From: an uncultured Rhizobiaceae group bacterium
Lineage (GTDB): Bacteria; Pseudomonadota; Alphaproteobacteria; Rhizobiales; Rhizobiaceae
Reading direction: 5' to 3'
NCBI GenBank assembly: GCA_938010435.1
Contig: CALLUS010000005.1
Span: 62,001-126,000 of the forward strand
Length of the DNA stretch: 64,000 nucleotides
The first letter of the stretch is position 1. Every line of letters begins with the position of its first letter. The notes beneath the pieces were generated by a model that was given only the letters and a program-made list of their open reading frames with translations, ran no database searches and had not been told where the DNA came from. The translations under genes and the position numbers were made by a program. This document shows positions 51,738 through 52,911 of this stretch, piece by piece.

Positions 51738-52340
51738 ATGAAACTCAAAATAGCAGGTTCCTTTGCCTTTATGACCATGCTGCTGTTTGGCTCTGGACAC
51801 AATCTCTCGTCAGTAGCCCATGCAGCATCAACCAATGTGATCAAGGTATGTTCTGGATATGGTTGTATTATCAGCGACCACTTCTCTTTTACTGCTACTG
51901 ACAATGAAGAACTCATCAAATCTATGACCAGTTCGGTAGGATCAGCCGCGAGTGAACGGGCAGCTATTGCCCAAACAATCGGGTTGATGGAACGCAAAGC
52001 AAGATCAAAGCTCCGCTACCGCCCTGATATTCGCAAAGCCTATATTAAAAACAGTGCGAAACGCGGTCAGATGGATTGCGTTGATGAATCACTCAACACG
52101 ACTGCCTATCTATATCACCTTTATGGCCTTGGCCTGTTGAAGTTCCACAAGCCAAAAAGACACTATGCTGAGCGCGGGTTTATTCTCGACGGCAGATACC
52201 CGCATAAGTCAGCGGTTATAACAGATCAATCAGGGAAACGTTGGACGGTTGACAGTTGGTATGGTGACGACGGTCAACCAGCGCAGGTGATGGAACACGC
52301 CAAATGGCGAAAAGTTCGCGACAGTTTCAATCCCGACTAA
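51738..52340 (+). CDS. Secreted protein with Cys/His/Asp arrangement, unknown
   Basis: 200 residues from ATG 51738 with GGAG seven bases upstream. An N-terminal signal peptide of about 29 residues ends at AHA-AS. The mature part has a Cys pair VCSGYGC (38, 43) and then Cys114 in [10 protein letters not shown], His156 in YPHKSAV and Asp172 in TVDSWY. The Cys-His-Asp order and spacing resemble transglutaminase-like or papain-like proteases, but I cannot place it in a named family. Transcribed alone, convergent with the DUF1127 gene region. Confidence 0.72.
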
Positions 52341-52374
52341 AGAAAAATCACTTTAACCTAAGACCAGAATCAGA

Positions 52375-52406
52375 AACGCCTGCCGGGGGAGGATCCGACA
52401 GGCGTT
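52375..52406 (-). terminator. Third hairpin of the small RNA; likely terminator
   Basis: Minus strand: stem AACGCCTG / CAGGCGTT, extended inwards by CGG/CCG past one mismatched pair, with loop ATCCTCCC. A modest T-rich tail (TTTCTGATTCT) follows. It fits the 3' terminator of the DUF1127-small RNA transcript while keeping an anti-Shine-Dalgarno loop. Confidence 0.55.
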
Positions 52407-52412
52407 CTATGT

Positions 52413-52443
52413 GTTCAACTTTGGGAGGAGGATAAAGTTGAAC
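52413..52443 (-). other. Second small-RNA hairpin, loop ATCCTCCTCCC
   Basis: Perfect ten-base stem GTTCAACTTT / AAAGTTGAAC with an 11-base loop containing CCTCCTCCC on the minus strand. Confidence 0.75.
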
Positions 52444-52448
52444 TCGTC

Positions 52449-52478
52449 AACTGAACTTGGGAGGAGGTAAGTTCAGTT
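52449..52478 (-). other. First small-RNA hairpin, loop ACCTCCTCCC
   Basis: Perfect ten-base stem AACTGAACTT / AAGTTCAGTT with a ten-base loop ACCTCCTCCC on the minus strand, beginning 12 bases after the DUF1127 stop. Its stem sequence differs from the second hairpin but the loop is the same, so the loop is what is conserved. Confidence 0.75.
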
Positions 52479-52489
52479 AAACCAAATGA

Positions 52490-52636
52490 TTACGTGCGCG
52501 CAGCGCGTTTTGCGATGAACGGGATGTCGCCACGAGCGATGCCAAGGTCGTTCAATTCACGGTTAGACAAGCCATAAAGCTCGTTACGTGTTTGACGTAC
52601 GCGGTTCCAAGTGCGGATGTTTCCAAGAAGGTTCAT
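52490..52636 (-). CDS. DUF1127 (YjiS-like) small protein
   Basis: 48 residues, too short for most ORF calls but clearly conserved. It starts MNLLGNIRTWNRVRQTRNEL and continues LSNRELNDLGIARGDIPFIAK, the DUF1127 signature (L-s-x-R-e-L-x-D-I/L-G-I-x-R-x-x-I). Highly basic, including an Arg-rich C-terminus. The R. sphaeroides homologue CcaF1 lies upstream of CcsR1-4 and is reported to influence RNA turnover; other DUF1127 proteins affect stress and phosphate or carbon metabolism. It very likely shares a transcript with the three-hairpin RNA that begins right after its stop codon. Start ATG 52634-52636, preceded by the purine-rich AAGGACTAGAG. Confidence 0.9.
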   Translation of the reverse strand: MNLLGNIRTWNRVRQTRNELYGLSNRELNDLGIARGDIPFIAKRAART

Positions 52637-52713: not shown

Positions 52714-52911
52714 GTTGAGTAACAAATAGAATTTTGGTCGAAAATTACGAGCGCAAAGGTTGCAACTGAGCCATGCGTTTAGTGCATGAAGCGCCACGTT
52801 TTCGTCACATAGATTGAAGTTTCGTTACCAAAAGCAACAGATCACAAACCATCGCCCATGAATCCACGGGCAAAGTTTATTGAAGTCTTAAAGGTGTCTT
52901 TCAAATTGGAC

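Follow-up and report, generated by a model that had tools for sequence, protein, structure and literature searches.

A three-hairpin anti-Shine-Dalgarno RNA of the ar14 family in the 3' region of a small DUF1127 gene of a Rhizobiaceae bacterium

What kind of RNA is formed by three hairpins that stand directly behind a small DUF1127 gene, which regulator would drive it, and on what would it act? The locus lies in a 64,000-nucleotide stretch of DNA (the window) from an uncultured Rhizobiaceae group bacterium, and its features are collected in Table 1. We propose the following model, to which we assign a probability of about 0.8: the locus would be a two-product transcription unit of the ar14/NfeR1 kind (a cuckoo RNA in the CIN1 layout), activated by a LysR-type regulator and silencing uptake genes in trans. 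One promoter would lie some 80 nt ahead of the DUF1127 start codon and would probably be activated by a regulator of the LsrB/VtlR type. Its transcript would carry the small DUF1127 protein and, right past the stop, the three hairpins, with its end near the last of them. Either within this transcript or after release from it, the hairpin portion may then act in trans; in Rhodobacter sphaeroides, the CcsR RNAs are freed by RNase E with the help of the DUF1127 protein CcaF1 (PMC10253847). Each loop would expose UCCUCCC or CCUCCUCCC for pairing with Shine-Dalgarno sites of the GGGAGGA type, and such pairing would block the translation of uptake genes, above all those for solute-binding proteins.

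Table 1. Features of the locus and its surroundings, in window coordinates.
Feature	Position	Strand	Basis or remark
uvrA			upstream of the DUF1127 gene, same direction
Candidate LsrB/VtlR (LysR-type) operator, TGCA-N6-GCAT	52773..52786	minus	block conserved in 11 aligned genus members
Candidate -10 element, CTATTT	52724..52729	minus	CTAT in 9 and CTATTT in 7 of 11 rows
DUF1127 gene, 48 aa	52490..52636	minus	Pfam PF06568, 46.9 bits (cut-off 23.3)
DUF1127 stop, TAA	52492-52490	minus	read from sequence
Spacer from stop to hairpin 1, 11 bases	52489-52479	minus	read from sequence
ar14-family (NfeR1-type) anti-Shine-Dalgarno RNA, three hairpins	52371..52486	minus	RF02344, model 1-123 of 123
Hairpin 1	52449..52478	minus	10 perfect pairs, loop ACCUCCUCCC; sequence, fold, covariation helix 1
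Hairpin 1, first arm AACTGAACTT	52478-52469	minus
Hairpin 1, loop ACCTCCTCCC	52468-52459	minus
Hairpin 1, second arm AAGTTCAGTT	52458-52449	minus
Hairpin 2	52413..52443	minus	10 perfect pairs, loop AUCCUCCUCCC; sequence, fold, covariation helix 2
Hairpin 2, first arm GTTCAACTTT	52443-52434	minus
Hairpin 2, loop ATCCTCCTCCC	52433-52423	minus
Hairpin 2, second arm AAAGTTGAAC	52422-52413	minus
Hairpin 3, probable terminator	52375..52406	minus	12 pairs, one G-U, loop AUCCUCCC; sequence, fold, covariation helix 3
Hairpin 3, first arm AACGCCTGTCGG	52406-52395	minus
Hairpin 3, loop ATCCTCCC	52394-52387	minus
Hairpin 3, second arm CCGGCAGGCGTT	52386-52375	minus
Convergent gene, 204 aa	51726-52340	plus	downstream of the DUF1127 gene and hairpins

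The arrangement is the one that the original prediction had described: past the stop of the DUF1127 gene come three hairpins with shared loops and differing stems, and the stem counts given then (10, 10 and at least 8 perfect pairs) hold, the eight outer pairs of hairpin 3 being perfect. Loop 3 has the shorter form of the motif, UCCUCCC, in this genome. Chance repeats were considered as a source of the loops and ruled out. The window holds CCTCCTCCC twice, both times at the hairpins, against 0.15 occurrences expected, and none of 100 shuffles held two; the fold of 52340-52490 has a z-score of -5.57, equalled by none of 200 shuffles. Over both strands of the window, hairpins with a CTCC loop and a stem of at least 8 pairs comprise the three at the locus and one elsewhere; in 20 Markov copies (one strand each), there was never more than one within 100 nt. 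That hairpin 3 doubles as the terminator is plausible and had been slightly overstated, given its poor T-tract (TTTCTGATTCT) and its absence from the output of a terminator scan at the locus; in the alignment, the T-tracts after hairpin 3 are longer in several relatives.

To which family does the RNA belong? A search of the whole window with Rfam 15 returned ar14 (RF02344) at the hairpins as the sole match over the cut-off, full length and with 79.5 bits against a gathering threshold of 58.8. Across the genome of 3.57 Mb, this is also the single ar14 match over the cut-off, and the gene before it is the single DUF1127 match over its own. The original prediction had used the label cuckoo or CcsR type and had called for a covariance search with a cuckoo model. 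At relaxed thresholds, CcsR1 (RF02791) matched hairpins 1 and 2 with 37.9 bits, below its cut-off of 65.3, and CcsR membership was rejected because the ar14 cut-off is reached and that of CcsR1 is not; what stands of the label is a multi-hairpin RNA with anti-Shine-Dalgarno loops that belongs with the cuckoo RNAs and lies in the 3' region of a DUF1127 gene.

Published descriptions agree with this placement. The ar14 RNAs have three hairpins, each with an identical CCUCCUCCC anti-Shine-Dalgarno motif, and highly divergent stems (PMC10746234), and two RNA families of Sinorhizobium, one with three hairpins and one with four, are described in much the same way (PMC3927594). The RNA here likewise has three hairpins with divergent stems and unpaired CCUCCUCCC loops, the third in its short form. 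In alphaproteobacteria, short DUF1127 proteins often accompany CcsR-like RNAs in what has been labelled the CIN1 locus (PMC10253847); a short DUF1127 gene with a CcsR-like anti-Shine-Dalgarno RNA, as described in that source, is also what we find. Since these papers describe both, the kind of hairpin RNA and the DUF1127 layout are each in print. The locus is genuine and conserved, and its RNA family and gene layout are both known from earlier descriptions; taken alone, it is ordinary.

The comparison can be sharpened on both sides. With ar14/NfeR1 of S. meliloti (RF02344), the locus shares three hairpins, CCUCCUCCC loops, variable stems, an upstream TGCA-N6-GCAT and predicted uptake-gene targets. 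NfeR1 is described as trans-acting with its own promoter, whereas here the DUF1127 ORF lies between the promoter-like block and the hairpins. With ccaF1-CcsR1-4, the CIN1 locus of R. sphaeroides, it shares a small DUF1127 gene followed by co-directional anti-Shine-Dalgarno hairpins; that system differs in its four RNAs, its RpoHI/RpoHII promoter and its protein of 71 aa, compared with 48 aa here, and the CcsR1 cut-off is not reached. The locus is thus a clean, conserved example between the Rfam families ar14 and CcsR1, with the RNA and promoter motif of the first and the gene layout of the second. The union of an ar14 RNA, a DUF1127 gene 5' of it and an LsrB-type site was not found stated in the accessible text of the literature searched, where a Greek-letter spelling of ar14 would escape the search, and we make no claim of novelty.

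How firmly are the gene and the hairpins linked? A scan with the gene next to the locus gave 80 named loci, including Phyllobacterium, Mesorhizobium, Aminobacter and one metagenome-assembled Ahrensia sp.; 10 of the 80 lie on contigs equal in length to contigs of the genus genomes among G001-G013, so the two sets overlap. With a DUF1127 profile built from the fetched loci, the gene was found in 53 of the 80 and was absent from the fetched stretch in 27, some of them on short contigs. Of the 53 loci with the gene, 48 hold two exact copies of CCTCCTCCC inside a 130-nt span; of the 27 without it, one does, and a contig end cuts that locus. In the named loci, gene and hairpins therefore come and go together. 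The original prediction had named, as the outcome that would count against it, relatives that keep the DUF1127 gene and lose the loops. Such an outcome did not appear in the close group, where 52 of the 53 loci have at least three CTCC-type clusters within 200 nt of a DUF1127 stop (43 of 4000 random 200-nt stretches of these loci do). More widely, in a sample of 30 loci (29 relatives with one locus each, and our own) drawn from a longer match list, 27 could be placed; 19 of these have at least two anti-Shine-Dalgarno clusters (background, 219 of 4000 random stretches), 15 have both the clusters and the upstream motif discussed below, and 8 have fewer than two clusters. One genus member with a 0.9-Mb genome (L256) keeps the DUF1127 gene and the motif and has no hairpins. 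Among the matches listed, several loci, mostly from Mesorhizobium and Aminobacter, have two DUF1127 genes and at least four hairpins, and one (L028/L132, G031:C130) has a tandem of four DUF1127 genes, three of them each followed by two anti-Shine-Dalgarno hairpins.

The RNA also occurs outside this layout. Among 41 genomes (own, genus, family and order), ar14 was found at E 0.01 or better in 31 and over the cut-off in 21. The matches over the cut-off number 34: a DUF1127 gene stands no more than 300 nt upstream of 18, and the remaining 16, one of which sits at a contig edge, lack one there. In a class-wide draw, ar14 passed the cut-off in at least one of 289 genomes (the source genome) and E 1e-6 in at least five, these counts being lower bounds with at most 11 candidates scored per genome.

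Covariation was analysed in an alignment of 29 of 30 hand-picked three-hairpin loci (L022 fell out); the picking script required three C[CT]TCC clusters close to the stop, and the genus loci L023, L027 and L029, with a degenerate or shifted hairpin, were left out. The loop cores, of 8, 6 and 6 columns, are invariant, a constancy that is partly built in because the rows were chosen by the loop motif; the covariation of the stems is not built in. In the RNAalifold structure, with 26 stem pairs and 748 cells, 95.3% of cells are paired (86.7% in helix 1, 93.0% in helix 2 and 99.5% in helix 3), compared with 36-55% after the partners had been shifted by 1-3 columns. Taking the structure from this very alignment gives it an advantage over the shifted versions, but the margin is large. 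Two-sided changes were seen in 20 of the 26 pairs and in 137 cells, against shuffle means of 13.3 and 42.4, and none of 500 shuffles was as high for either. The original prediction had taken variable stems and shared loops in a single genome to point to selection on the loop as RNA; the stems covary around constant loop cores, which indicates that selection acts on an RNA with exposed loops. A plus-strand ORF of 43 aa that spans the hairpins (52304-52435) was set aside because the compensatory stem changes account for the conservation.

It is conceivable that the hairpins work in cis only, ending the transcript and protecting the DUF1127 mRNA, with the CCUCC loops as a by-product. The terminator-like shape of hairpin 3 and the place of the hairpins directly past the stop would suit such a role. 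Yet the loop cores stay constant where the stem letters vary (in rows chosen by loop motif), the 16 unlinked copies noted above have no preceding DUF1127 gene, and NfeR1 acts in trans (PMC10746234). We regard a purely cis-acting role as very improbable and retain the trans-acting RNA of our model.

Under which regulator might the unit stand? An upstream alignment of 11 genus members shows one conserved block, consisting of TGCA-N6-GCAT or a near form of it, a TTTGCG-CTCGTA stretch and then CTAT. Of the 53 named loci, 50 have TGCA-N6-GCA[TA] no more than 250 nt from the start codon, compared with 135 of 4000 random 250-nt stretches; the strict form is missing upstream in L037, L038 and L041. 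The motif also precedes 14 of the 18 DUF1127-linked ar14 matches (two pairs share one gene) and, in strict form, 5 of the 16 unlinked ones over the cut-off, so that a LysR-type site shared by the free-standing copies is only partly borne out. Within the window, TGCA-N6-GCAT occurs at chance level (6 matches, 6.16 expected); because the motif is not rare there, the evidence for the site is its conservation and its place. A scan of the upstream region for sigma-70 consensus promoters found none. Nor was there any match near or upstream of the DUF1127 gene to the loose RpoH-like consensus CTTG-N14-20-CCAT; this is a weak test, and an RpoH promoter was held less likely on this ground.

The block resembles the NfeR1 promoter, in which TGCA-N6-GCAT at -72 to -60 is bound by LsrB, with activation, and the -10 element is CTATAT (PMC10746234). 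From that layout, we predict a transcription start near 52717, which would place the candidate operator at about -69 to -56. For Agrobacterium, a VtlR box GCAT-N3-TG-N3-T has been proposed (PMC7486931), and all but one base of it fits at this locus (GCATGGCTCAGTT). In Brucella, where LsrB goes by the name VtlR, it has been reported to activate abcR2 together with three DUF1127 genes (PMC12595884). The VtlR of Agrobacterium binds at the abcR1 promoter and at that of atu1667, which encodes a small protein and has two of Brucella's three genes as orthologues (PMC7486931). Like the gene here in our model, these genes encode small proteins under a LysR-type regulator that also drives an anti-Shine-Dalgarno RNA (AbcR); in the accessible portions of those papers, they are described as protein genes, with hairpins after them unmentioned.

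These upstream features bear on a further possibility, that the locus is genuinely of the CcsR (cuckoo) kind known from R. sphaeroides, with an RpoHI/RpoHII promoter, induction by heat or singlet oxygen, and release of the RNAs by RNase E and CcaF1. The order of parts is identical, a DUF1127 gene and then CCUCCUCCC hairpins, the CcsR1 model gave E 9e-8 in a narrow search, and the ccaF1-CcsR unit and the CIN1 label are described in print (PMC10253847). Against this stand the Rfam scores, with the cut-off reached by ar14 and missed by CcsR1, and the single three-hairpin unit here in place of the four CcsR RNAs of R. sphaeroides. In addition, what is conserved upstream looks like the LsrB-activated promoter of NfeR1 rather than like the RpoH-driven one of ccaF1-CcsR. 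Since the block is of the NfeR1/LsrB kind and no CTTG-N14-20-CCAT site was found, LysR-type control appears likelier than the heat or singlet-oxygen setting put forward in the original prediction, which is not supported. We consider a CcsR locus unlikely and hold to an ar14-type unit under a LysR-type activator.

What might the exposed loops bind? They pair best with GGGAGGA(GG). In this genome, GGGAGGA-N4-10-ATG occurs at 36 sites, compared with 6 for the reversed pattern, and HGGAGGA-N4-10-ATG, which differs only in the first base, at 66 compared with 11. Because the forward counts far exceed the reversed ones, both sets are mostly true Shine-Dalgarno sites; GGGAGGA is not over-represented relative to HGGAGGA, 36:66 being the same ratio as the reversed control of 6:11. 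ORFs of at least 50 aa stand behind 30 and 42 of the sites, respectively. Among the 36 GGGAGGA sites, 6 with ORFs below 50 aa were dropped, one of which (L163) is the antisense of a hairpin on contig C6; among the 66 HGGAGGA control sites, 24 with ORFs below 50 aa were dropped, and L244 and L245 of the remaining 42 were left unscanned. L168 and L231, alternative starts of a single gene that has no Pfam hit, were counted as non-binding. Solute-binding proteins, defined by the Pfam families Peripla_BP_4/6, SBP_bac_1/8, DctP, TctC, NMT1_3 and OpuAC, make up 17 of 30 ORFs behind GGGAGGA and 7 of 40 behind HGGAGGA (Fisher p 0.0009), a class chosen after the first set had been seen and with the published expectation known beforehand. 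Restricting the count to ORFs with any Pfam hit gives 17 of 26 against 7 of 30 (p 0.0026), and further removal of six control ORFs whose start lies within a gene leaves 17 of 26 against 7 of 24 (p 0.013).

The published expectation concerns the same class of genes. Target candidates of NfeR1 are mostly ABC transport genes, its three motifs are redundant, and an ntrB reporter is no longer lowered in a triple-loop mutant (PMC10746234). Both NfeR1 and AbcR1 are described in print as acting chiefly on transport genes (PMC10746234, PMC7486931), and in an Agrobacterium mutant of abcR1, transport or membrane genes account for 56% of those changed (PMC7486931). Pairing of the loops with ribosome binding sites, as originally predicted, is in line with the bias of GGGAGGA start sites towards uptake genes, and the most likely function of the RNA would be to silence such genes by blocking ribosome binding. 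The bias points to a regulon of the anti-Shine-Dalgarno RNAs of this genome and not of the ar14 RNA alone, because a second RNA, on contig C6, carries the same loop. One may also think of a buffer at the level of the ribosome, in which the loops would bind accessible Shine-Dalgarno sites globally and would have no defined target set: the loops match any GGAGG, and GGGAGGA is not enriched over HGGAGGA. The solute-binding bias suggests a defined regulon instead, though the RNA on contig C6 could own it. To such a buffer we give very little credence, and silencing of a set of uptake genes remains our reading.

The RNA on contig C6 (C6:41592-41717; L216:3593-3718) has a terminator and two hairpins, whose loops carry CCTCCTCCC and TTCCTCCC. 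In a row on that contig lie a Pyr_redox_2 (pyridine-nucleotide oxidoreductase) gene, a LysR gene and the RNA. Its matches to ar14 (22.2 bits) and suhB/mmgR (20.3 bits) are weak, and the label AbcR therefore rests on layout and neighbours. AbcR1 and AbcR2 resemble the RNA at the DUF1127 locus in their anti-Shine-Dalgarno loops and in their uptake-gene targets and LsrB/VtlR control, the latter two predicted for the RNA here; they differ in being free-standing, with another order of hairpins, and the AbcR-like candidate of this genome is the RNA on C6. The trxB-vtlR-abcR2 area of Brucella is similar to the C6 row, with two further genes described there (PMC12595884).

What would be the role of the small protein? 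CcaF1 of R. sphaeroides binds RNA and acts with RNase E in the maturation of the CcsR RNAs (PMC10253847). In Agrobacterium, the partner bound by small DUF1127 proteins is the PhoR kinase (PMC12501420), and given this partner, the 48-aa protein here need not bind RNA. For a Sinorhizobium DUF1127 gene, another control is in print, attenuation in the leader (PMC12218461). We speculate, tentatively and at somewhat less than even odds, that free-standing NfeR1-type RNAs and those led by a DUF1127 gene are two forms of a single transcription unit, one lacking and one including the ORF, and that the same LsrB/VtlR-type site runs both. In that case, those LsrB/VtlR-activated DUF1127 'small protein' genes of Rhizobiales that are followed by hairpins would serve as host transcripts for RNAs that silence uptake, and the small protein would be a processing or stability partner of its co-transcribed RNA. 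The locus makes two points testable in a laboratory rhizobium: whether the RNA depends on the DUF1127 protein encoded by the same transcript, and whether a LysR-type regulator acts on uptake genes through such RNAs.

Several minor observations concern the surroundings and the remainder of the genome. The convergent gene downstream of the hairpins matched no Pfam family at E 0.01 and has relatives in Phyllobacterium, Mesorhizobium, Aminobacter, the Brucella group and Microvirga. On contig C13 (C13:1131-1245; L147), the end of a sigma-70 region-4 gene that looks like RpoH is followed by a terminator with one CCUCC (TTCCTCCC) loop, a weak ar14 match of 22.9 bits that may be due to chance. The same contig has a match resembling a TPP riboswitch on the minus strand (L147:3108-3225; 47.1 bits, under the cut-off of 54.3).

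Anti-Shine-Dalgarno motifs also recur behind phasin genes. In 8 of 10 genus cases, a Phasin_2 gene whose product has a C-terminus like LAYSKGFAV has CTCCTCCC or TTCCTCCC right past the stop: our own (G000:C2:286160-286426; L281) and L280, L282, L283 and L285-L288, and not L284 or L291. The phasin terminator loop carries the motif as well in four (G001, G002, G004 and G011), and 5 of 18 phasin matches overall have two or more anti-Shine-Dalgarno motifs. At L121 and L128, an ar14 match over the Rfam cut-off follows a gene whose end, by eye, is phasin-like.
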